Below, in pieces: positions 31,515 through 59,610 of a stretch of DNA of 64,000 nt. The position numbers and the translations under genes are program-made. The stretch's first letter is position 1. The number at the start of each line of letters is the position of its first letter. The notes under the pieces were generated by a model. That model did no database searches. It saw only the letters and a program-made list of their open reading frames with translations, and was not told the DNA's origin. This stretch comes from Candidatus Tectimicrobiota bacterium (GTDB taxonomy: Bacteria; JACPUC01): assembly GCA_016192455.1 (NCBI GenBank), contig JACPUC010000019.1, positions 1 to 64,000 of the forward strand, read 5' to 3'.

Positions 31515-31853
31515 TCATGAGCGAATGAGCGATTCCGCCGACACGCGGGGATCAGGCGCTTCGACGCGCCGCACCCTGACCTTCACGTCCACCCGCAACC
31601 CGAGCCGGTTGAGGATCGACATGAGACGATCAACCGTGAAGCGGCCCAGATCCGCGTTGCGGATACGGGAGAAGTCTGCCGCCGCGACCCCCGCGCGGCT
31701 GTGCGCCGCCCGAACGCTCAACTTCTCCCGGTCGAGCGCCTTGATGATTTCGGCTGCCAGGATGGCCTTGAGCTGCTCGATATCCGCGTTCTCACACCCG
31801 AGGTCGCGGAATACGTTGCCGCTTCCCCGCACCACGTCCAGCTTCTCTTTCAT
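31515..31853 (-). CDS. XRE-family antitoxin (HigA-like)
   Basis: A 112-residue helix-turn-helix protein of the type paired with gp49/HigB toxins. The N-terminus has GNVFRDLGCENADIEQLKA, the usual lead-in, followed by a DNA-binding domain at about 40-90 (KLSVRAAHSRAGVAAADFSRI, diverged in the recognition helix). It overlaps the toxin gene by 4 nt and is encoded second, the HigBA order. Expected to neutralise the toxin and repress the shared promoter at 32265-32293. The C-terminal 15 residues are not conserved. Confidence 0.82.
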   Translation of the reverse strand: MKEKLDVVRGSGNVFRDLGCENADIEQLKAILAAEIIKALDREKLSVRAAHSRAGVAAADFSRIRNADLGRFTVDRLMSILNRLGLRVDVKVRVRRVEAPDPRVSAESLIRS

Positions 31854-32197
31854 CGCAACATCTCCTTCAATCTCTTCAATCGGTCCTTGATAAGATCAAC
31901 GTCCCGCTTCGGCGTCTTGATGCCCCGCGTCGATCTCTTCTGGAATACGTGAACCACCCAGATTTCATCGCCGAGCTGCACCGCGTAGACCACCCGGAAC
32001 GCATCGCCGCGATACGGCAGGGCCACCTCAAAGACGCCCGACCCCATCCCGCGCATCGGCTTCGCAATGTCCGCCTTGCCGCCAGCGGCGGCGATCGCCA
32101 GCGCCGCCAGGCAGATCGACCGCGCCCCCTCCGGGAAGGCCTCGAAGTCCTTCAGGGCCGCCTTGATCCAGGAGATAGGTCGCGGTTTCCGCGTCAT
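31850..32197 (-). CDS. Phage gp49/HigB-type toxin
   Basis: A 115-residue RelE-fold toxin relative, expected to be a ribosome-dependent mRNA interferase. The visible family pattern is a basic N-terminus (WIKAALKDFEAFPEGAR), MRGMGSGVFEVALPYRGDAFR and VVYAVQLGDEIWVVHVFQKRS, ending in a lysine-rich helix. The start at 32197 is preferred to an upstream in-frame ATG at 32293 because the promoter -10 lies at 32265-32270, between the two. The stop overlaps the antitoxin start (ATGA). Confidence 0.85.
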   Translation of the reverse strand: MTRKPRPISWIKAALKDFEAFPEGARSICLAALAIAAAGGKADIAKPMRGMGSGVFEVALPYRGDAFRVVYAVQLGDEIWVVHVFQKRSTRGIKTPKRDVDLIKDRLKRLKEMLR

Positions 32198-32264
32198 GCG
32201 CCGTCGCTGCTCATCGCGTGGCCACGAATCCGCGAAGCTTGGCGAATTCGCTTCCTCTTTCGCT

Positions 32265-32293
32265 ATGTTGTCATATTTGCCAACACCTGTCAA
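32265..32293 (-). promoter_or_regulatory. Promoter and candidate operator of the HigBA-type operon
   Basis: On the minus strand a consensus TTGACA (32288-32293) and CAACAT (32265-32270) are spaced 17 bp. The spacer and -10 overlap an imperfect palindrome, TGTTGgcaaatatgaCAACA, placed where an antitoxin dimer would block RNA polymerase. The start codon follows about 70 bp downstream. Confidence 0.65.
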
Positions 32294-34211: not shown

Positions 34212-34967
34212 CTACCAGGAGCTGCGCGACATCCCTTCCTCGAAGGCTTGCATGACGATCTTCTCCATCTCGAAGAGATCGTCCGAGCCGTAGCGCCGCG
34301 GGAAGGGCGTGGGGATGGGGATTTCGTGGCAGATCACCGTGGGCTTGGGGGTGAAGATGATGATCTTCTGCGCCAGGTAGCAGGCCTCGGCGATATCGTG
34401 GGTGACGAAGAGGATGGTCTTGCGGGTCTCGGTCCAGAGGCGGATAAGCTCGGCCCGCATGTCGCGCGCGGTGATCTCGTCGAGGCTGCTGAACGGCTCG
34501 TCCATAAGCAGGATGTCCGGCTGGATGGAGAAGGCGCGGGCGATGGCGACGCGCTGCTGCATGCCGCCGGAAATCTGGTGCGGGTAGTAGTTCTTGAACT
34601 CCCGCAGCCCGACCATCGTCAGCACGGAGTCAATGATCTTCTGGCGCTGTTGGCGCTTCACCGAGGGGGCCATCACGAAGTCAATGTTATCCTTCACCAG
34701 GGCCCACGGGAGCAAGCGATGGTTCTGGAAGACGAATCCCAGCCGTGGTTTGCGACCCTCTTCCTCGATGATGAGCTCCCCTGAGTCGGCCTTCAACAAC
34801 CCGCCGATCAGGTTCAGGGTGACCGATTTCCCGGAACCGGAAGGCCCCAGCAGGCAGACGAAGCTCCCCGCCTCGACGCTGAAGGAGATATCCTTCAGCA
34901 CGTGGAGCTGCGTGCCGTCGCCGGTGTTGAAGCTCTTGGTGATGTTCTTCAGATGGATCGTGGCCAC
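34212..34967 (-). CDS. NitT/TauT-family ABC transporter ATP-binding protein
   Basis: A 251-residue ATPase of the nitrate/sulfonate/taurine import family. It has Walker A LLGPSGSGKSVTL, Q-loop FVFQNHRLLPW, signature ISGGMQQRVAIARAF, Walker B ILLMDEPFSSLD and the H-loop FVTHDIAEA. The GTG at 34967 is chosen because AAGGTGG lies upstream at good distance; a TTG 24 nt further up is possible. Together with the permease (35068) and binding protein (36124) it forms a complete importer on one strand. Confidence 0.92.
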   Translation of the reverse strand: MATIHLKNITKSFNTGDGTQLHVLKDISFSVEAGSFVCLLGPSGSGKSVTLNLIGGLLKADSGELIIEEEGRKPRLGFVFQNHRLLPWALVKDNIDFVMAPSVKRQQRQKIIDSVLTMVGLREFKNYYPHQISGGMQQRVAIARAFSIQPDILLMDEPFSSLDEITARDMRAELIRLWTETRKTILFVTHDIAEACYLAQKIIIFTPKPTVICHEIPIPTPFPRRYGSDDLFEMEKIVMQAFEEGMSRSSW

Positions 34968-35067
34968 GCCGCACTTCCACCTTCTCAGCAAGGGCCGTAC
35001 GAGAAGCAGGGAGCGTACCTAGGACGCCTTGACGCGCGCCGCCGAGCGCTGCCGGGATGCGCTGCGT

Positions 35068-35808
35068 TCATTTCGGCCGCCAGCGCATGAGGTAGGTCTC
35101 GACCGGTACGATGACGATGTACTCCGTGGCCAGCATCATGACGATCAACATCAGCGTCCAGGCGAAAACGCCGACGTTGTCGAAGTTCTCCCAGGAGTAG
35201 AGCATCTTGTAGCCGATGCCGCTGCCGCCGACAATGAGTTCGGCAAGGACGGACATGCGCCAGCCGTAGCTCAGCGAGCTGCGCGCCGAGCTGAGCAGGA
35301 ACGGCAGGATCGTGGGGATGAGGATGCCGAAGAAAACGCGCCGCCGCGACACGCTGTAGGCTTGCGCCATCTGCATGAGCGACAGGTCGGTGCTCTTCAG
35401 CCCCATCCAGACGTTGATCGCCGTGAGCGGGTAGCCGACGATGAAGACCACGAAGATCACGGAGAACTGCGTGAGGCCGAACCAGATGACGGCGAAAAAG
35501 CTCCACACCAGGGCGGGAATGGTTTGCAGGAAGAAGACCGGCACCTTGAAGAAGCTCTCACCGTAACGCAGCAGCACCCCGGTGATGGTGCCGAAGAAGA
35601 TGGCCGCAAGCCAGCCGGTGAAGACGCGGAAAGAGGTTGCCCCTACATCCCCCCAGAGCTCCCCCTTGTCAACGTATTCGAGGAGCTTCTTCATGGTGGT
35701 GGGAATAGAGGGGAAGAGGTAGACCGGGAAGATGAATGAGCACGCGGTCCAGACCACGACAACCGCCAGGACCGCCAGGAGCGTCCAGCCCGTGCTGCGC
35801 TTCTTCAT
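35068..35808 (-). CDS. NitT/TauT-family ABC transporter permease
   Basis: A 246-residue inner-membrane protein with six predicted helices. The conserved BPD_transp_1 region includes the EAA-like loop (AYSVSRRRVFFGILIPTILPFLLSSAR) and SYGWRMSVLAELIVGGSGIGY, typical of SsuC/TauC proteins. The ATG at 35808 follows GGGAGGAG; upstream codons lie before the first helix and are not conserved. It works with the adjacent ATPase and binding protein. Confidence 0.92.
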   Translation of the reverse strand: MKKRSTGWTLLAVLAVVVVWTACSFIFPVYLFPSIPTTMKKLLEYVDKGELWGDVGATSFRVFTGWLAAIFFGTITGVLLRYGESFFKVPVFFLQTIPALVWSFFAVIWFGLTQFSVIFVVFIVGYPLTAINVWMGLKSTDLSLMQMAQAYSVSRRRVFFGILIPTILPFLLSSARSSLSYGWRMSVLAELIVGGSGIGYKMLYSWENFDNVGVFAWTLMLIVMMLATEYIVIVPVETYLMRWRPK

Positions 35809-36123
35809 GGGCTCCTCCCTCGTACGGCTCCCTAGCCCACGGTGCGCGACGGTTCCCCACGCCGGCGTGGGGACCATCCGCGACCATGCTCCTCAGACGC
35901 GGTCATCGAGAATGAGCGGCGCGCTCAGCGAAGGAGCCGCGGCGCTTCGTTGAGAGACGAGGCCGCGGCTTCGTCCGTGCCCTTCAACCGCCGCGGGGTG
36001 GCGCGAGCGAGGCGCGCAGACTCGACACCTGGGCCGCGGCGCGCTCCTCATCTCACCTCGAGCCGGCAGCCTGGGCTCGGCGCCCCGGCATTGCCGGAGC
36101 GCCCGCCGGCGCGTGCGCCGCCG

Positions 36124-37107
36124 CTACGGCAGCGTCCAGATCTCCTTCGCGTTCGGCACTTCCTTGATAAACCCCAGGTCCTTCACGAGCTTGTAGAAGT
36201 CCTGGACCTGCTTCCACGCCTTTTCGTCGAGGCCGGTACGCATCCACGCGTCTCCGAAGTAGACGCGAATCTCCTTCATGGTCTTCATGTCGAGATCGAG
36301 CTTCTTCGCCCCGATGGCATCGACTTCATCGGGGTGGGAGTACGTCCGCGCGATGGCGACATCGAGGGCTTTCACGAAGCTCTTCAGAGCAGCGCGATTC
36401 TTCTCGTAGTAATCGCGGTGGAAGCCGATGCCGAACTGCGGGAAGAGGCCGCCGTACTTCTGCTCGTAGAGGTCCTGAGGCTTGGCGAGGATGCGATACT
36501 CTCCGGTGGCCAGGGCTTTCGCGAGCGAGGGATGCCAGATGATCGTGGAATCCAGCTTGTTGGTGCCGATGGCGCCGATGCTTGCCGCCGGGGCGCTCGA
36601 GCTTACCTTCAGCTCTTTTTCGAGATCAACGCCGGCGATCTGAAATGCCACGCGCGACAGGATGTACTCGGTGCCGCTGATCGATGGGGTTGAAAAGGTC
36701 CGCCCGCGGAGGTCTTGCAGCGTCTTGAAGGGTGCATCCTTCTTCACGATGATGCCGAACTGGCGGGGGTAAATCCAGGGGCGGATGAGGTTCACCGGCA
36801 CGCCACCCTCCATGAAGTTGTAGGCGGTGACGATGCCGATGTAAGAGCCGTCGGTGCGCTTTCCTTTGAAGGAGGTGTACATCTCCGTGGGGCGGGCGAA
36901 GACGGTGATCTTCAGATCGATCCCGTACTCTTTCTTCAGGTCTTGCTCTTGCAGCCAGAAGAGTGGCAAGGCCGTGACCGATTGGATGATCCCGAGGTGC
37001 ATTTTCGTTTGCGCCGCAACGTTGCTCGATCCAAGGAGCATGACGCCGAGGGCAAGCGCCAACACCTTCAACCCACGCCGACAAACACGACCGGAACGGC
37101 GCTCCAT
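36124..37107 (-). CDS. NitT/TauT (NMT1/SsuA-type) substrate-binding protein
   Basis: A 327-residue periplasmic protein with a signal peptide (basic start, LALALGVMLLGSSNVAAQ). The mature fold begins MHLGIIQSVTALPLFWLQEQ, then FARPTEMYTSFKGKRTDGSYIG-like and PSISGTEYILSRVAF segments, typical of NMT1/SsuA-type proteins. Substrates in this family include sulfonates, nitrate, phthalate and thiamine precursors; none is indicated here. It lies 182 bp downstream of two radical-SAM-like genes on the same strand, so the imported molecule may feed them. Confidence 0.88.
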   Translation of the reverse strand: MERRSGRVCRRGLKVLALALGVMLLGSSNVAAQTKMHLGIIQSVTALPLFWLQEQDLKKEYGIDLKITVFARPTEMYTSFKGKRTDGSYIGIVTAYNFMEGGVPVNLIRPWIYPRQFGIIVKKDAPFKTLQDLRGRTFSTPSISGTEYILSRVAFQIAGVDLEKELKVSSSAPAASIGAIGTNKLDSTIIWHPSLAKALATGEYRILAKPQDLYEQKYGGLFPQFGIGFHRDYYEKNRAALKSFVKALDVAIARTYSHPDEVDAIGAKKLDLDMKTMKEIRVYFGDAWMRTGLDEKAWKQVQDFYKLVKDLGFIKEVPNAKEIWTLP

Positions 37108-37289: not shown

Positions 37290-38555
37290 CTACGCCGCCG
37301 CCGCCTTCGCCTCGCGCTCGCGGAGCTGCTCGTAGTACTCCCAGTCGCACATCACGTCGTTGATGTTGCAGCCGCGGCAGAAGCACGCCGGCACCGGCAG
37401 GTTATGCTTCTTGCGCAGCTCGTAGTGGCCGCGCGCCATCTTCAGGTAGTACTCGAAGGGAGCTGGGTGCGATTGCCCGGCCAGCTTCGAGTTCGCTTCG
37501 ATCACCCAGACGTCCATGCGCGGAATCACCCCATTCCCCATCAGGTAGTCGAAGCCGCCCAGGGTGGAGGCGACCGCCTCGTCCACGTCGGTGAAGCCGA
37601 AGGGACGCGCCATCTCGGAGCCGGCCACAAACGTGCTGACGATGCGGCCTTCGCCAAAGATTTCGGCGCTGCACACCATGCGCCGCACCCACTCGTGGTA
37701 GCCGATGGCCCGCGCCTTGCCGGGACACATGACGTTCCAGATGCGCTCGTCCCACACCTCGGTATTGTGGTGCAGGGTGCCGACGCCGGTGGCGAAGAGC
37801 TTGCGGGCCTCCTCCTCGCGGTGCGCCACGATCTGGAAGAAGGTGGGATACCACACCTTCAGGCGGCGGCGGATAGCCTCCAGGTAGGTGACATAGTGAT
37901 CAACCTCCTTCTGGCCCTGGAAGGTGGTCAGGATGGTGCCAGCGCTCAGGGCGATGTGACGGTAGCCAACTTCCTGCAGCGCCTGGGCCAAGACCTCCGC
38001 CACCAGCTCCGGGTCCTTGTGCACGTCGAGCTTCTCGCCGGACTTCTTCTGGAACACGGTGTGCGCCGTGAAGTCGCAGAAGAGGCACTCCTCGTTCTCT
38101 TTCCAGAACTCGCAGTACTTGTTGAAGGTGACGAAGAGCTTGTCCATGCCGACGGATTGCACGATGGAGGCCTTCGGCTTGCCGTTCTCCAGCTCTTCGT
38201 AGTAGTAGCGGGGGCGCTTGCGGAAGGTGATTTCCCCCAGCGGCTCCTCGCCGTCGTAGAGCATGAAGGAGCCGTCCCGCACGTCGATGACGTAGGGCGA
38301 GGTGTTGTTGCGGCGGAACTGGATGATGGTGTCGTCGCTCTTCAAGATGAAATCCTGCGGAATCTTCTCCCCGGCGGTGGCCGGCGTACTGACATCCTGG
38401 GAGAAGAGGAAGTAGCCCTTGAAGACGGTGTCGAGGCGGCTAAAGGCATCGATGGCGGCGGGCGTCGGGTTCACCCCCAGGCGCAGCGTTTCGATCTTGA
38501 TGATGATGCTCTCCGGAACTTCAGGATAGCGCTCGAACAACGCACGCATGCCCAT
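37290..38555 (-). CDS. Radical-SAM-like protein with C-X8-C-X2-C motif, paralogue 1
   Basis: A 421-residue protein I recognise only as radical-SAM-like. After an N-terminal domain of about 140 residues, a strand leads into three cysteines C148, C157 and C160 (NKYCEFWKENEECLFCDF), spaced C-X8-C-X2-C rather than the usual C-X3-C-X2-C. A TIM-barrel-like stretch follows (HIALSAGTIL, FQIVAHREEEARKL, TLHHNTEVWD). A second group, C391, C393, C396 and C403 (CFCRGCNINDVMC), could hold an auxiliary cluster. The ATG at 38555 follows GGGAG. It is about 90% identical to the next gene upstream. Reaction unknown. Confidence 0.7.
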   Translation of the reverse strand: MGMRALFERYPEVPESIIIKIETLRLGVNPTPAAIDAFSRLDTVFKGYFLFSQDVSTPATAGEKIPQDFILKSDDTIIQFRRNNTSPYVIDVRDGSFMLYDGEEPLGEITFRKRPRYYYEELENGKPKASIVQSVGMDKLFVTFNKYCEFWKENEECLFCDFTAHTVFQKKSGEKLDVHKDPELVAEVLAQALQEVGYRHIALSAGTILTTFQGQKEVDHYVTYLEAIRRRLKVWYPTFFQIVAHREEEARKLFATGVGTLHHNTEVWDERIWNVMCPGKARAIGYHEWVRRMVCSAEIFGEGRIVSTFVAGSEMARPFGFTDVDEAVASTLGGFDYLMGNGVIPRMDVWVIEANSKLAGQSHPAPFEYYLKMARGHYELRKKHNLPVPACFCRGCNINDVMCDWEYYEQLREREAKAAAA

Positions 38556-38658
38556 GCCGACCATCTCCCTGCTGGTGCAGCAACCCACCGCCCTGTTCGC
38601 CGCCACCGTTGGGCGACGCGGCGGCTCTCACCCGTCCTAGCCTTCCCTGCCCCGCCGA

Positions 38659-39921
38659 TCACGCCACGGCAGCCTTTGCCTCGCGCCCCCGGAGCTGCTC
38701 GTAGTACTCCCAATCGCACATCACGTCGTTGACGTTGCAGCCGCGGCAGTAACACGCCGGCACCGGCAGGTTATGTTTCCTGCGCAGCTCGTAGTAGCCG
38801 CGCGCCATCTTCAGGTAGTACTCGAAGGGGGTCGGCGGCTGCCCGGCCAGCCGCGTGTTCGCCTCGATCACCCAGACGTCCATGCGCGGGATGATGCCGT
38901 TCCCCATGAGATAGTCGAAGCCGCCCAGGGTCGAGGTGACTGCCTCGTCTACGTCGGTGAAGCCGAAGGGACGCGCCATCTCGGAGCCCGCCACAAACGT
39001 GCTGACGATGCGCCCCTCGCCGAAGATCTTGGCGCTGCGCACCATGCGCCGCACCCACTCCTGGTAGCCGATGGCGCGCGCCTTGCCGGGACACATAACG
39101 TTCCAGATGCGTTCGTCCCACACCTCGGTATTGTGGTGCAGGGTGCCGACGCCGGTGGCGAAGAGCTTGCGGGCCTCCTCCTCGCGGTGCGCCACGATCT
39201 GGAAGTAGCTGGGGTACCAGACCTTCAGACGGCGGCGGATGGCCTCGAGGTAGGTGACGTAGTGATCAACCTCCTGCTGCCCCTGGTAGGTGCTCAGGAT
39301 CGTGCCGGCGCTCAGGGCGATGTGCCGATACCCGGTCTCTTTCAGCGCCAGGGAGAGCACCTCGGCAACGAGCTCCGGGTCCTTGTGCACGTCGAGCTTC
39401 TCGCCGGACTTCTTCTGGAACACAGTGTGCGCCGTGAAGTCGCAGAACAGGCACTCCTCGTCCGCTTTCCAGAACTCGCAGTACTTGTTGAAGGTGACGA
39501 AGAGCTTGTCCACGCCGACGGACTGCACGATGGAGGCCATCGGCTTGCCGTTCTCCAGCTCTTCGTAGTAGTAGCGCGGGCGTTTGCGGAAGGTGATTTC
39601 TCCCAGCGGCTCTTGACCGTCGTAGAGCATGAAGGCGCCGTCGCGCACGTCGATGCTGTAGGGTGAGGCATGGTTGCGGCGCAACTGAATGACGGTGTCG
39701 TCGCTCTTCAAGATGAAATCCGAAGGAATCTTCTCGCCCGCGGTTGCCGGCGTGCTCACGTCCTGGGAGAAGAGAAAGTAGCCCTTGAAGACCGTGTCGA
39801 GGCGGCCAAAGGCGTCGACGGCTGCAGGCGTCGGGTTCACTCCCAGGCGCAGCGCCTCGATCTTGATGATGATGCTCTCCGGAACTTCAGGATAGCTCTC
39901 GATCAACGCGTGCATGCCCAT
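38659..39921 (-). CDS. Radical-SAM-like protein with C-X8-C-X2-C motif, paralogue 2
   Basis: A 420-residue tandem paralogue of the gene at 37290-38555, about 90% identical over its full length. All seven conserved cysteines are kept (NKYCEFWKADEECLFCDF and CYCRGCNVNDVMC). The ATG at 39921 follows GAGAGAGGG. Differences concentrate in the first 100 residues and a few helix positions, so both copies appear to be under selection. It is first in the run of minus-strand genes leading to the NitT/TauT importer and probably shares its job. The upstream gap (39922-40355, 434 bp) holds no supported gene. Confidence 0.7.
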   Translation of the reverse strand: MGMHALIESYPEVPESIIIKIEALRLGVNPTPAAVDAFGRLDTVFKGYFLFSQDVSTPATAGEKIPSDFILKSDDTVIQLRRNHASPYSIDVRDGAFMLYDGQEPLGEITFRKRPRYYYEELENGKPMASIVQSVGVDKLFVTFNKYCEFWKADEECLFCDFTAHTVFQKKSGEKLDVHKDPELVAEVLSLALKETGYRHIALSAGTILSTYQGQQEVDHYVTYLEAIRRRLKVWYPSYFQIVAHREEEARKLFATGVGTLHHNTEVWDERIWNVMCPGKARAIGYQEWVRRMVRSAKIFGEGRIVSTFVAGSEMARPFGFTDVDEAVTSTLGGFDYLMGNGIIPRMDVWVIEANTRLAGQPPTPFEYYLKMARGYYELRRKHNLPVPACYCRGCNVNDVMCDWEYYEQLRGREAKAAVA

Positions 39922-40968: not shown

Positions 40969-41985
40969 TCAGCGCAGGGCCCGCGGGGCGCCGCCGGAAT
41001 AGGCGAGTTGGTGGGGCTCCGCTCCCACCTCGAGTGCGGCGATGATCTCAAGAGACTGCGGGTCGATAATCAGCGTCTGACGCGTGCTGAGGCGGTTCAT
41101 GACAATGAAGTACCCCGCTGCCGTCCCCACCGTGAGGAGGTGGCCCGGCTCCTTGCCGATCTCCACGGTCTTCTCGACCTGGTTCGTCGCCGTGTTCAGG
41201 ATGGAGTACGTGGTTCCGCCGCGGTTCGTGACGTAGAGGCGCTTCCCATCGGGGGAGGCGGCGATGCCGTGCGGGCCCATCCCCGTCTTGACGCGGCCGA
41301 TCTGCCGGCGGGCCGCAAGGTCGATGATGCTCACGTCGCCGGAGAAATTATTCGTCACGTAGAGGCGCGTGCCGTCAAGCGACAGAGCCAAATGGTCCGG
41401 CGCTTCCCCCGTCGCCACCGTTCCCACCACCTCCTGTTTGCCGGTGTCAATGATCGCCACCCGATCAGCCTCGCGGTCGGTCACGTAGGCGAAGCGCGAA
41501 TCCGCCGAGAAGATGACCGAGTCCGGCGTTTTCATCCCCTTGATCTTGGCGACGAGGCTCTGCCGGGCGACATCGACCACGGCGACGAAGCCGGCCTTCT
41601 CCGTGGTGGCGTAGGCCCACGCGCCATCCGGAGAGATCGCCACATGGTGGGAGTGAGTCCCCAGCTCGATCTCCTTGACGATCTGCCCGCGTTGCGGGTC
41701 AGCGAGGATGAGTCGCGTCGATTGCGTGATCGACGGCACGACCAGGAGCTTCCCATCCGGGGTGGCTGCGAGCCCATGCGGCTGCGCTTCCACAGGAATG
41801 GAACGCAGAATCGCGCGCTTGGCAAAGTCGATGACCAGCACGCGCTTGGCAGGTCCCATGGCGAGGTAGAGCTCTCCCGCCACGGAAACGGCCAACGCCG
41901 GCGCCGCCCGCGCCAGGAGCCCCAGCAGGACCAAGGCGCACACGGCACTCAAACCACGAGCCGTCAGAGAGATCCTCACGCGCAT
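40969..41985 (-). CDS. Exported YVTN-type beta-propeller protein
   Basis: A 338-residue periplasmic protein with a signal peptide ending near APALA. The mature part is a seven-bladed propeller made of YVTN repeats: RFAYVTDREADRVAIID, RLYVTNNFSGDVSIID, RLYVTNRGGTTYSILN, each followed by PDG/LDG turns. Such propellers often accompany c-type cytochromes and act as binding scaffolds or as non-catalytic relatives of cytochrome cd1 and nitrous oxide reductase propellers. It has no CXXCH. It lies 54 bp downstream of the monohaem cytochrome. Confidence 0.88.
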   Translation of the reverse strand: MRVRISLTARGLSAVCALVLLGLLARAAPALAVSVAGELYLAMGPAKRVLVIDFAKRAILRSIPVEAQPHGLAATPDGKLLVVPSITQSTRLILADPQRGQIVKEIELGTHSHHVAISPDGAWAYATTEKAGFVAVVDVARQSLVAKIKGMKTPDSVIFSADSRFAYVTDREADRVAIIDTGKQEVVGTVATGEAPDHLALSLDGTRLYVTNNFSGDVSIIDLAARRQIGRVKTGMGPHGIAASPDGKRLYVTNRGGTTYSILNTATNQVEKTVEIGKEPGHLLTVGTAAGYFIVMNRLSTRQTLIIDPQSLEIIAALEVGAEPHQLAYSGGAPRALR

Positions 41986-42039: not shown

Positions 42040-42522
42040 TCACCGGAGGGATGGCCCCGGCGGCGTCTCCGGCGCCACGTGGTTCTCTCGTTTGGCGCTC
42101 GCTCCGCCTGCGGCGAAGCTGCGCAGGTAGGCGATGAGGTCCTCGATCTGGTAGGGGCGCAGCGTCCTTCCCCAGGCCGGCATGAGGTAGGAGAGGCCGG
42201 CGCCTGGGCCGCCTTCGGTGATCACGCGCCGCAGGTCATCGGCGGACCTCGTCGCCATGTAGGCAGCATCGGTAAAGTCCCGCGGCGCCTTGGCCAGGAA
42301 CTCGGCGTTGCTCCCCCTGCCATCCCCACGCGGGCCGTGGCATGCGGCGCAGTAGTAAGCGTACAGCGCCTTGCCGCGCTGCAGCCGTTCCGTTCGTCGG
42401 GGCGGTGTGATGAGCGGCGCCGCCTGGCGAGGCTCCTCGGCTCCGAGCGCCGTCGCGGCCAGCACGGCCAGTGCGAGCAGGAGAGCCCCCGCCACCTTTC
42501 TTGCGCGGTCACTGCGCGTCAT
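42040..42522 (-). CDS. Monohaem class I cytochrome c
   Basis: A 160-residue exported cytochrome c. Signal peptide to about residue 28 (ALLLALAVLAATALGA). Haem is attached at C58-A-A-C61-H62 (YCAACHGPRGDG), with the sixth ligand Met in SYLMPAWG. Its start overlaps the 3' end of the octahaem cytochrome gene by 14 nt, so the two are translationally linked and the protein is probably the electron acceptor or terminal carrier of the complex. Confidence 0.93.
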   Translation of the reverse strand: MTRSDRARKVAGALLLALAVLAATALGAEEPRQAAPLITPPRRTERLQRGKALYAYYCAACHGPRGDGRGSNAEFLAKAPRDFTDAAYMATRSADDLRRVITEGGPGAGLSYLMPAWGRTLRPYQIEDLIAYLRSFAAGGASAKRENHVAPETPPGPSLR

Positions 42523-44578
42523 CGGTTTTCAAGCTCATCAGGTAGGCGGTCATGGCCGCGGCCTCGGTGTCGCTGATGCCGAGGTTCGGCATGCGCGTGT
42601 GGCGCACGAGAAGCTCAGGCGTCTGCATCATCCCCCGCACCCAGGCCGGCTGCAGCCGCGCCCCGGCGCTGCTGAGGTCCGGCCCCACCCGTCCGCCCCG
42701 CTCGCCGACGCGGTGGCAGGCGATGCACGGGTGCACCCGCGAGAACAATCGTCGCCCCTCTTGGATGAGGGCCTCGGTGCTCTCCTCCTTGCCGGGGTGG
42801 GGACCGAGCCCATCGGCGCGCAGCATGGAGGTGGCGTAGGCGACAAGGACCTCGATCTCGTTGTCAGTCAGGCGGAAATCCGGCATGCGCGCGCTCGACA
42901 GGGGGTTGCGCGGCTGCGGCTCCGCCAGGTAGCGTCGCAGCCAGGCCGGGGTGACCCGGCTCCCCAGCGCCGTGAGATCGGGACCGATGTCGCCGCCCTG
43001 GGCGCCGATGCGGTGGCACGTGAGGCAGCGATACCGCTCCACGACGGCGCTCAACTCCCCCTTATGGAGCATCGTCGGGGCGCGATCAGATGCCGAGGGC
43101 ACTCGATACTTTTGCGGCGGCTTGTGCGGCAGGCTGAGGATGAAGGTCGCCAGGGCATCGGTATCTTCCATGGCGACGTTGGGATAGGGCATCCTGGCGT
43201 CTTCGTAGAAGGTATGGGGCGTCATGATCTTGGCGAAGAGCCAGCTCTCCGCGGTGCGGTTTGCCCCCAGCTCGTTGGAACCGAAATCGAGTTCCTCAAC
43301 GCCTTTCAGCGCGAACTTCGTCAGGTCGGGGCCGGGACTCCCCTTGGGAAGGCCGCGCAGGAGATGGCAGCCGGTGCAGTTGGAGCTCAGCACGATCTCC
43401 CTGCCGCGCTTCCTGAGCTGCTCCTCGGAGGAGACCGCCCCGCCCCCTCGTTCGCTTGGCAGCGCCGGGGGGGCACTTGTGTGCCGGGCTGCGGGTTTCT
43501 CGTCTGCTGCCCTGCTCAGCAGGTAGCTTGCCAGGTTCAGTGCCTCCCGGCGCGAGAAGCGGTAGGCCGGCATGCGCCCGCTGGGCTGCTCGCGGCGGTT
43601 GTCCTGCAGGTAGCCGACCAGCCAGGCGGCGTTCACCTTCTCGCCCAGGGCGGTGAGCGGCGGGCCGATCTTCTCGGGCGCCAGCAGACCCTCCGGTTCG
43701 GGACCGGAGAAGTCATGGCAGGTGCGGCAGGCGGAGCGCTCGAAGAGCTGCTTGCCCACCTCGGCATCCGCCTGGGCGAGCTCCTCGGCGCGCAGCTCCG
43801 GACGGGGCAGGGGCGACCCTGCCGCGGCAGATGCCGCCGGCTCCTCCTCGCTCATCAGGTAGGCGACGAGCGCGTCAAGTTGCTCCTCCTTGAAGCGGTA
43901 GTTCGGCATGCGCGCCGCCGGCCAGACCTGCTGCGGGTCCTGCAGGTAGCGTCGCACCCAGGCGGCGCTTGTCTTCCGCGGTAGGTGATCGAGGCTCGTC
44001 TTCGCCTCGGCCGGCAGCTCCCGGCCGCTCACCGTGTGGCAGCCCAGGCAGTTGAGGCGCTCGAAAAGCTGCTGCCCCCTGACGGCGCGCGGCGCCTCCA
44101 CCACCCGGGGCTGGGCGTGGCAGCCGAGGCAGGGAGCTTCCAGAAAGGCCGCCGGCAGCAGCGGGTACTTCCAGCTCGCCTTGCGGCCGTGCCCGCCGTC
44201 AACGCTTGTGCCAAGGCCATCGCCGCGATGGCACACCGTGCAGCCGAAGGACTCGACCGGATGGAAGCGCAGGAACGGCTCGGGATGCGCCGTGAGCGGC
44301 TGCGGCCAGGCGGCGGCGCGCTCCTCCGTCACGCCGAGGTGGCACGTCGTGCAGCGGTCGAGCACGCCGAGGGCCGGCACGTTGATCTGCGCGATGCCCT
44401 TGACCGCAGCCTCTCCCTTTGCTGCCGGGGCGGCTTGCCCCGTCCCGGCCGCCGGCCGCACCAGGCGCGCGTACTCCTCCTGGTGGCCCACCCAGTCGCG
44501 CTGCCGATCCCTCCACACAGCGAGCAGGATCGCCGCCAGCAGGGCGAAGCTGAAGAGCACGAAGAGGACATACCTCAT
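42509..44578 (-). CDS. Membrane-anchored octahaem cytochrome c
   Basis: A 689-residue protein with one N-terminal membrane helix and eight CXXCH sites. The first three (C76-H80, C113-H117, C150-H154) are close together in a multihaem head. The other five lie in tandem class I cytochrome c modules, each followed by a W-L/V-xx-YL segment and a Met-Pro ligand (ARMPNYRF, GRMPAYRF, ARMPYPNV, ARMPDFRL, TRMPNLGI). It takes the place of cytochrome c1/f in a Rieske/split-b complex: genes for cyt b subunits and Rieske lie directly upstream in transcription order, with 1 bp between it and the cyt b C-terminal subunit. Located at the periplasmic face. Confidence 0.93.
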   Translation of the reverse strand: MRYVLFVLFSFALLAAILLAVWRDRQRDWVGHQEEYARLVRPAAGTGQAAPAAKGEAAVKGIAQINVPALGVLDRCTTCHLGVTEERAAAWPQPLTAHPEPFLRFHPVESFGCTVCHRGDGLGTSVDGGHGRKASWKYPLLPAAFLEAPCLGCHAQPRVVEAPRAVRGQQLFERLNCLGCHTVSGRELPAEAKTSLDHLPRKTSAAWVRRYLQDPQQVWPAARMPNYRFKEEQLDALVAYLMSEEEPAASAAAGSPLPRPELRAEELAQADAEVGKQLFERSACRTCHDFSGPEPEGLLAPEKIGPPLTALGEKVNAAWLVGYLQDNRREQPSGRMPAYRFSRREALNLASYLLSRAADEKPAARHTSAPPALPSERGGGAVSSEEQLRKRGREIVLSSNCTGCHLLRGLPKGSPGPDLTKFALKGVEELDFGSNELGANRTAESWLFAKIMTPHTFYEDARMPYPNVAMEDTDALATFILSLPHKPPQKYRVPSASDRAPTMLHKGELSAVVERYRCLTCHRIGAQGGDIGPDLTALGSRVTPAWLRRYLAEPQPRNPLSSARMPDFRLTDNEIEVLVAYATSMLRADGLGPHPGKEESTEALIQEGRRLFSRVHPCIACHRVGERGGRVGPDLSSAGARLQPAWVRGMMQTPELLVRHTRMPNLGISDTEAAAMTAYLMSLKTDDAQ

Positions 44579-58647: not shown

Positions 58648-59610
58648 ATGAGAGTGGATATTACCTACCATTATCCCCCTGAATTGATGAGTCTCCTCAT
58701 CGACACAATTCCGCTTCTCAACAAAGCGAAAAAAGATGTGTTTCTGTTTTTCCAAGGTGCTGGGGTGGCGGACTCACTCATGAGGCTTCCCCTTCAACGG
58801 TGGAAACAAGACAGGAACAACATAAACAAATTTGAGATTGCCCGGCAAGTTTTAGTCGAACTTAATGCGAGAGGCGAAACATGCTTAAGAGAACGTCGAG
58901 AAGTTCTAAAGCGTGTGATTGAATTCGAGTCTTTTTCATCCTGCTGGCCAGCGGATCAGCTCAAAGCAAGGGGATTAGTTGCAGAAATTCAGAAGGTAGT
59001 TAACGTCAAGGATAGCTTTACGCGTATGGCAAAAGAACGTGAGGCGACCCAACAAGCCCACATAGCTAAAAAACAGGCTGAGATCGATAAGGCTACCAAA
59101 AAGAGAGATGCGATCACAAAGGTAAAAAGTGACCTATCCGCCTTGTTTACCGAAGGTGACAGGCACAGACGAGGAAAGGCATTGGAAGGAGTCTTAAACT
59201 CTCTATTCGAGGCTTATGGCATTCTCATACGTGAGGCGTTTTCTCTTCCCGGCGATCAGGGCGAGGGAGTGGTTGAACAAATTGATGGTGTCATTGAGCT
59301 TGATGGCCACCTATACTTCGTCGAGGTGAAATGGTGGAAGGAGCCACTTGGTGTTGCAGAAATATCACAGCACCTTGTCCGGGTTTACCATCGTGCCGAA
59401 AGTCGCGCAATCATTATCTCTGCCTCTGACTTCACCGCTCCTGCCGTGACTACATGCAAAAAAGCATTGCAGCAGAAGGTAGTGGTGCTATGCACGTTGC
59501 AAGAAATCACAATTTTACTTGAAAGAGAGGGTGACCTTCGTGAGTTTATCAAGAAAAAAGCCCAGGCCTCAATAGTTGATGGTAACCCCTACTTCGAGGT
59601 CCGCATGTAA
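58648..59610 (+). CDS. Orphan Mrr-type PD-(D/E)xK restriction endonuclease
   Basis: A 320-residue protein. The C-terminal ~150 residues form an Mrr-like nuclease with E180 (RRGKALEGVLNSLF), D213 (VEQIDGVIEL), and E226/K228 (LYFVEVKWW). The N-terminal ~125 residues are a helical domain of unknown function (TYHYPPELMSLLIDTIPLLN, then DRNNINKFEIARQVL). A charged coiled coil (about 127-165) joins them. Base composition is much AT-richer than its neighbours. There is no methyltransferase, so a modification-dependent or other stand-alone defence nuclease is inferred. Confidence 0.8.
   Translation: MRVDITYHYPPELMSLLIDTIPLLNKAKKDVFLFFQGAGVADSLMRLPLQRWKQDRNNINKFEIARQVLVELNARGETCLRERREVLKRVIEFESFSSCWPADQLKARGLVAEIQKVVNVKDSFTRMAKEREATQQAHIAKKQAEIDKATKKRDAITKVKSDLSALFTEGDRHRRGKALEGVLNSLFEAYGILIREAFSLPGDQGEGVVEQIDGVIELDGHLYFVEVKWWKEPLGVAEISQHLVRVYHRAESRAIIISASDFTAPAVTTCKKALQQKVVVLCTLQEITILLEREGDLREFIKKKAQASIVDGNPYFEVRM

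Follow-up and report, generated by a model that had tools for sequence, protein, structure and literature searches.

The window, by which we mean the whole stretch of 64,000 nucleotides of DNA analysed here, carries on its minus strand two tandem radical-SAM-like genes, rSAM2 (38659..39921), the first gene of the pair, and its tandem copy rSAM1 (37290..38555). The longest open reading frames extend to 40005 and 38606, respectively; the ATGs at 39921 and 38555, which are common to both copies and are each preceded by an SD sequence, are the preferred and likely starts, and the end coordinate given in the initial annotation of this DNA corresponds to the 39921 start of rSAM2. That annotation had described two tandem radical-SAM-like reading frames of about 90% identity, a description which was borne out on the minus strand, with 89% amino acid identity across 427 residues and 90% nucleotide identity between the copies. 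A third paralogue, which it had missed, is encoded in the window genome (G000:C10:5262-6800; L050).

The divergence between rSAM1 and rSAM2 was estimated by NG86 (dN 0.05, dS 0.32; dN/dS ∼0.15) and by YN00 (dN 0.04, dS 0.91). The NG86 values indicate purifying selection on each of the two copies and a duplication that is not extremely recent; of the previously suggested recent duplication with retained motifs, the retention of the motifs was confirmed.

Cysteine motifs and predicted fold

The cluster loop of rSAM2, C176-X8-C185-X2-C188 (CEFWKADEECLFC), is located at 39442..39480 on the minus strand, preceded by a strand (residues 167-171) and followed by a helix (residues 190-199), and the equivalent C-X8-C-X2-C loop of rSAM1, comprising C165, C174 and C177 (CEFWKENEECLFC), is located at 38076..38114 on the same strand; across both copies the loop reads CEFWK(E/A)(N/D)EECLFC. 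A second group of cysteines, C-x-C-x2-C-x6-C, is found at the C-terminus of rSAM2 (C418, C420, C423 and C430; 38716..38754, minus strand), where it forms a candidate auxiliary Fe-S site in a segment modelled by AlphaFold with low confidence, and of rSAM1 (37347..37385, minus strand). Both motifs and the retention of all seven cysteines in the two copies had been reported before, and we recovered each of them, the cluster loop in the place originally assigned to it.

In an alignment of 53 diverse homologues, C176, C185 and C188 are invariant, together with the start methionine, G55, G234, E294, K308 and G340, and a further, nearly invariant cysteine, C305 within a CPGK motif, had been overlooked by the earlier reading. 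The exact X8 first spacing is present in 94 of 102 homologues counted, a set which was in part fetched by a pattern covering C-X2-C, so that the homologues derived by HMM constitute the unbiased set; those fetched by HMM alone likewise keep C-X8-11-C-X2-C. Because the three cysteines are invariant in 53 relatives, the stretched spacing is a property of the family rather than of the pair. The C-terminal four-cysteine group in its exact C-x-C-x2-C-x6-C form is, in contrast, specific to the pair, the other family branches having C-x2-C or C-x2-C-x2-C in this position. A variant radical-SAM fragment with a C-terminal CFVCRRC was also encountered beside old-yellow-enzyme-like, NifH-family and nitroreductase-like genes (L048:1-8441).

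The noncanonical motif, the replacement of the GG of the SAM-binding strand by AG in the pair (residues 233-234) and the rSAM2 score just below the Pfam gathering score (see below) could be taken as signs that radical-SAM catalysis has been lost in at least one of the copies, leaving a structural or regulatory role only. However, the family-invariant residues are all kept in both copies and the dN/dS of ∼0.15 likewise argues against such a loss, which we consider very improbable. We rather lean towards both rSAM1 and rSAM2 being functional radical-SAM enzymes that belong to the NF045502 'variant_rSAM' lineage.

Canonical MqnE carries C-X3-C-X2-C, a spacing that the pair does not have, and the first spacing of Elp3 is C-X9-C-X2-C. 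The similarity of the latter to the three-cysteine spacing of the pair is set against the lack of a GNAT domain and of any Elp3 family match in the Pfam and NCBIfam scans of the two proteins. A lengthened first spacing is also found in HmdB (C-X5-C-X2-C) and in QueE, in which the cluster site is kept with one extended loop within C-X14-C-X2-C (PMC4389238), although families, spacings and substrates differ from those of the pair. In view of such known exceptions, C-X3-C-X2-C does not define the radical-SAM superfamily (PMC4389238). Apart from a single co-matching review on iron-sulphur biogenesis, our literature search returned no paper in which C-X8-C-X2-C or C-X9-C-X2-C is mentioned for a radical-SAM enzyme.

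AlphaFold predicted a radical-SAM partial TIM barrel for the pair, with a pLDDT of 81 and a pTM of 0.85 using 9 sequences and a pLDDT of 87 and a pTM of 0.86 using 53 sequences. The three cysteines are placed in the loop after strand 1 in the order strand 167-171, C176, short helix 177-181, C185, C188 and helix 190-199; the cluster loop is modelled at a pLDDT of about 89-90, and its extra residues form the inserted short helix 177-181. The model therefore supports a view in which C-X8-C-X2-C is a canonical cluster loop grown by an inserted short helix, with the C-X2-C part unchanged. The closest structural neighbours were lipoyl synthase LipA (Z 18.0, 246 residues, 4.7 Å) and MqnE (PDB 6XI9; Z 17.0, 240 residues, 3.8 Å), followed by HydE, HydG, NifB, PylB and BioB, the top rows being tied within about one Z unit (Z 16-18 to LipA, MqnE, HydG and HydE). 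The strand-loop position of the cysteines ahead of a TIM-barrel-like region, proposed from the reading frames, is thereby reproduced at the strand 1/helix 1 position, and since a barrel with neighbours at Z 16-18 was predicted, the objection that the fold might not be a partial TIM barrel does not apply. The C-terminal four-cysteine segment was modelled at a pLDDT of 56-79, that is with low confidence, and the auxiliary cluster is accordingly treated here as a plausible candidate.

Family membership and position of the pair

Both proteins match NF045502 'variant_rSAM' of NCBIfam over nearly the whole model length, at 222.8 and 223.3 bits against a cut-off of 125 (E 4e-66 for rSAM2 and 6e-66 for rSAM1). 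For Pfam PF04055 Radical_SAM, with a gathering score of 29.5, rSAM1 lies above (30.3) and rSAM2 just below (25.6). Neither an HMM match to SPASM/Twitch in the Pfam and NCBIfam scans nor a PDB chain matching by sequence was found for the pair. Taken together with the AlphaFold barrel and its structural neighbours, the NF045502 match supports the radical-SAM identity initially proposed, and we regard the two proteins as very probably belonging to this superfamily.

NF045502, for which the product is given as 'radical SAM protein', is a broad model without function and most of the members found share the cysteine spacing of the pair. Matches over the cut-off were present in 15 of 145 genomes drawn across the domain, and the members examined carry C-X8 to X11-C-X2-C, except for one fragment without the motif region. 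The motif had been singled out as unusual: its loop is indeed noncanonical, but it is not peculiar to the pair, as indicated by the existence of the NF045502 model and by the C-X9-C-X2-C of TIGR04043.

A peptide-pattern search of the genome contigs with rSAM2 alone yielded no relative, and a query built from a four-row alignment yielded more than 540, the best of which reaches 35% identity over its best segment; no relative exceeding about 35% across the full match was found in the genome contigs searched, among which the window genome is the sole representative of its phylum. Two of the relatives tested match no Pfam model whatever. In a quick tree of 79 rows, the pair has a long branch (length 2.3) to itself, and its sister set consists of the third-paralogue clade (L050, L061 and L075) and a clade of 53 rows. 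The pair is thus set apart from the rest of NF045502 by its long isolated branch and its own C-terminal four-cysteine group, and is a new, isolated deep branch within a family of variant radical-SAM proteins that is uncharacterised although a model for it exists.

TIGR04043 (MSMEG_0568), which belongs to the Nit1C nitrilase cluster, is like the pair in its stretched C-X9-C-X2-C and its C-terminal cysteines (C-x2-C-x2-C), and both proteins match it remotely (58-60 bits, E 3e-16). A role of the pair in a nitrile- or cyanide-linked pathway, as for the MSMEG_0568 (NitD) family, might be considered on the basis of this homology. However, the score of 59 bits is far under the cut-off of 304 (303.7), identity is about 25%, the NitD family is distant from the pair in the tree, and neither a nitrilase nor other Nit1C genes were seen around the pair, all of which makes such a role very improbable.

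The sister clade and the futalosine pathway

Members of the large sister clade, referred to below as MqnE-like, are immediate same-strand neighbours of mqnA (PF02621) at eight loci, distributed over Acidobacteriota, Chloroflexota, Actinomycetota and one gammaproteobacterial MAG. The futalosine-type loci include L063:8093-11553, L072:2152-6205, L103:8027-12728, L127:7565-10732 and L096:1571-3745. At the first two the order is mqnA, variant radical-SAM gene and mqnC, with MqnC over the NCBIfam cut-off, and at L127 an MqnC-like gene, below the cut-off, follows the variant radical-SAM gene. At L103 the order is mqnA, variant radical-SAM gene, a hydrolase of the aminofutalosine-deaminase family (below the cut-off) and DAHP synthase; since neither an MqnC- nor an MqnE-like protein was found in the corresponding genome, a gammaproteobacterial MAG labelled Legionella, this cluster may serve a product other than menaquinone.

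An MqnC-level protein without MqnE was found in 13 of 386 genomes, which were sorted by hand and in which MqnE was taken to be absent when there was only one MqnC/MqnE-type match and this scored as MqnC; the count is as reliable as this rule. The sister clade is present in eight of these 13, compared to four of the 133 genomes with at least two MqnC/MqnE-type matches (Fisher p 1.3e-7, a value which ignores shared ancestry); a rough count at the family level, for which the denominator was assumed, yielded p 3e-5. Each of the eight clade-bearing genomes lacking MqnE encodes two proteins with strong PF02621 matches, the number expected if MqnA and MqnD are both present, and the remaining five MqnE-lacking genomes contain neither the clade nor MqnE. 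The clade and MqnE occur together in one family of three genomes and in one genome of 9.2 Mb.

A later, separate test covered 297 genomes of the phylum to which the Acidobacteriota MAG G387 belongs, and counted MqnE over its cut-off. The clade was present in 28 and canonical MqnE in 183 of these genomes, with an overlap of 0 (Fisher p 2e-13, again irrespective of shared ancestry), and the best MqnE score in the clade-bearing genomes was only at the level of MqnC/CofH. From gene order and gene presence, we predict that the large sister clade is a non-orthologous, alternative aminofutalosine synthase carrying C-X8-C-X2-C. A literature search retrieved no paper proposing an alternative MqnE, and in the passages of Ravcheev and Thiele (PMC4746308) consulted here replacements are proposed for other quinone enzymes and not for MqnE.

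The sister position of the pair in the tree and the many conserved residues it has in common with the MqnE-like clade raise the question of whether rSAM1 and rSAM2 are themselves aminofutalosine synthases replacing MqnE in menaquinone biosynthesis. TIGR03700 (canonical MqnE, cut-off 434.55 bits) is not among the NCBIfam matches of either protein at E 1. The radical-SAM barrel is common to the pair and MqnE (PDB 6XI9), the job of which the sister clade appears to do. No MqnA or MqnD was found in the window genome: two weak PF02621 matches coincide with NMT1 matches, the stronger of them being a secreted binding protein with a signal-peptide-like N-terminus. With the genome 88% complete, their absence from the assembly is not proof that the organism lacks them. 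The only MqnC/MqnE-like protein of this genome is CofH. Moreover, the long branch of the pair is not part of the MqnE-like clade, and many residues that are 93-100% conserved in this clade differ in the pair, including invariant ones and the whole C-terminal G-Y-G...FSVSxFMD segment. With no futalosine pathway found in the genome and the clade-specific residues differing, we rejected an aminofutalosine synthase identity for the pair, which appears very improbable.

Residues common to the pair and the MqnE-like clade, such as R53, R109, H290, N292, R374, W378 and E381, are mostly not found in the more distant branches. At the level of sequence, this pattern suggests a related active site in the pair acting on a substrate other than that of the MqnE-like clade, and in view of the many clade-conserved residues that differ, the chemistry may differ as well.

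As a separate observation, the CofH of the window genome scores over its cut-off and is preceded by a CofG-like gene (L185:8426-10631, contig C2); the organism probably makes coenzyme F420.

Gene neighbourhood, proposed activity and implications

On the minus strand, the pair is followed by three genes of an ABC transporter, encoding an NMT1/SsuA-like substrate-binding protein with a signal-peptide-like N-terminus (36124..37107; PF09084, E 1e-10), a permease of the SsuC/TauC type (35068..35877) and an ATPase of the SsuB/TauB/NrtD type (34212..34991), the latter two assigned by Pfam/NCBIfam scans. The same-strand order is rSAM2, rSAM1, binding protein, permease and ATPase with no other gene between, and the gaps calculated with the longest reading frames are 52, 182, 246 and 76 bp. 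From such a run an operon is plausible, with wide spacing for one ahead of the binding-protein gene (182 bp) and the permease gene (246 bp). Upstream of the pair, the window contains two genes for cytochrome c (42043-44578), one of which encodes several c-type domains, adjoined by a YncE-like beta-propeller gene (40972-41985). Further away, two patches of lower GC content harbour an HTH_37 gene beside a short reading frame, resembling a toxin-antitoxin pair (31518-32293), and a protein with an Mrr-type restriction endonuclease domain (58648-59607).

Co-occurrence with the transporter had been put forward as a check on the pair, and the outcome is divided: the transporter is present in the window, but a binding-protein homologue is absent from every homologous locus examined. 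The third paralogue (L050:5262-10500, contig C10 of the window genome) is instead directly beside HyuA/HyuB genes, and the relatives L061:8710-14283 and L075:8968-14235 also adjoin HyuA/HyuB (hydantoinase/caprolactamase-like), with molybdopterin dehydrogenase-type genes near the L061 member (confirmed by Pfam) and apparently near the L075 member. The family therefore has several gene contexts.

Two readings of the neighbourhood have to be weighed. The pair may be radical-SAM enzymes next to an unrelated transporter and act on an internal substrate, for instance a cofactor precursor, as may also hold for the HyuA/HyuB-linked paralogue. The window genome (4.46 Mb) encodes a strikingly large set of 75 NMT1-type binding proteins, so that adjacency by chance is not improbable and the link to the transporter is weak; the homologous loci without a binding protein and the HyuA/HyuB genes beside the third paralogue and its two relatives point in the same direction. 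Against this stand the common strand and order without an intervening gene, and an interval between rSAM1 and the binding protein that contains, on the minus strand, no strong terminator and only a weak stem near 37106. We regard an unrelated transporter as a serious possibility, somewhat short of an even chance, and the idea that the neighbouring transporter takes up the substrate of the enzymes as a rather tentative one.

We propose the following model for the pair as radical-SAM enzymes. C176, C185 and C188 would hold a [4Fe-4S] cluster that binds SAM and reductively cleaves it to a 5'-deoxyadenosyl radical, and the C-terminal C-x-C-x2-C-x6-C would hold an auxiliary cluster. The radical would attack a small carboxylated substrate, possibly brought in by the neighbouring NMT1-type ABC transporter, through the sister clade's chemistry or a closely related one; in the MqnE-like clade, this chemistry would be a radical addition of the adenosyl group. 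For the pair itself, chemistry of the adenosyl-addition type is doubtful. At its broadest, the model describes the family as an overlooked radical-SAM lineage derived from an adenosyl-transferring ancestor, in which the largest clade became a second aminofutalosine synthase and the pair founded a further activity with an auxiliary cluster and an imported substrate; we put forward this whole picture as speculative and rather unlikely to hold in full.

Overall, the C-X8-C-X2-C loop hides the enzymes of this family from standard annotation, as seen for the two relatives without any Pfam match. The prediction for the sister clade is the most useful product of the analysis: if true, many bacteria seemingly without MqnE may make menaquinone (vitamin K2) by means of another radical-SAM enzyme. 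Judging by the title of a work cited in PMC11994313, MqnE has been considered as a target for narrow-spectrum antibiotics, and a non-orthologous replacement of MqnE would therefore matter both for pathway prediction and for the range of inhibitors.
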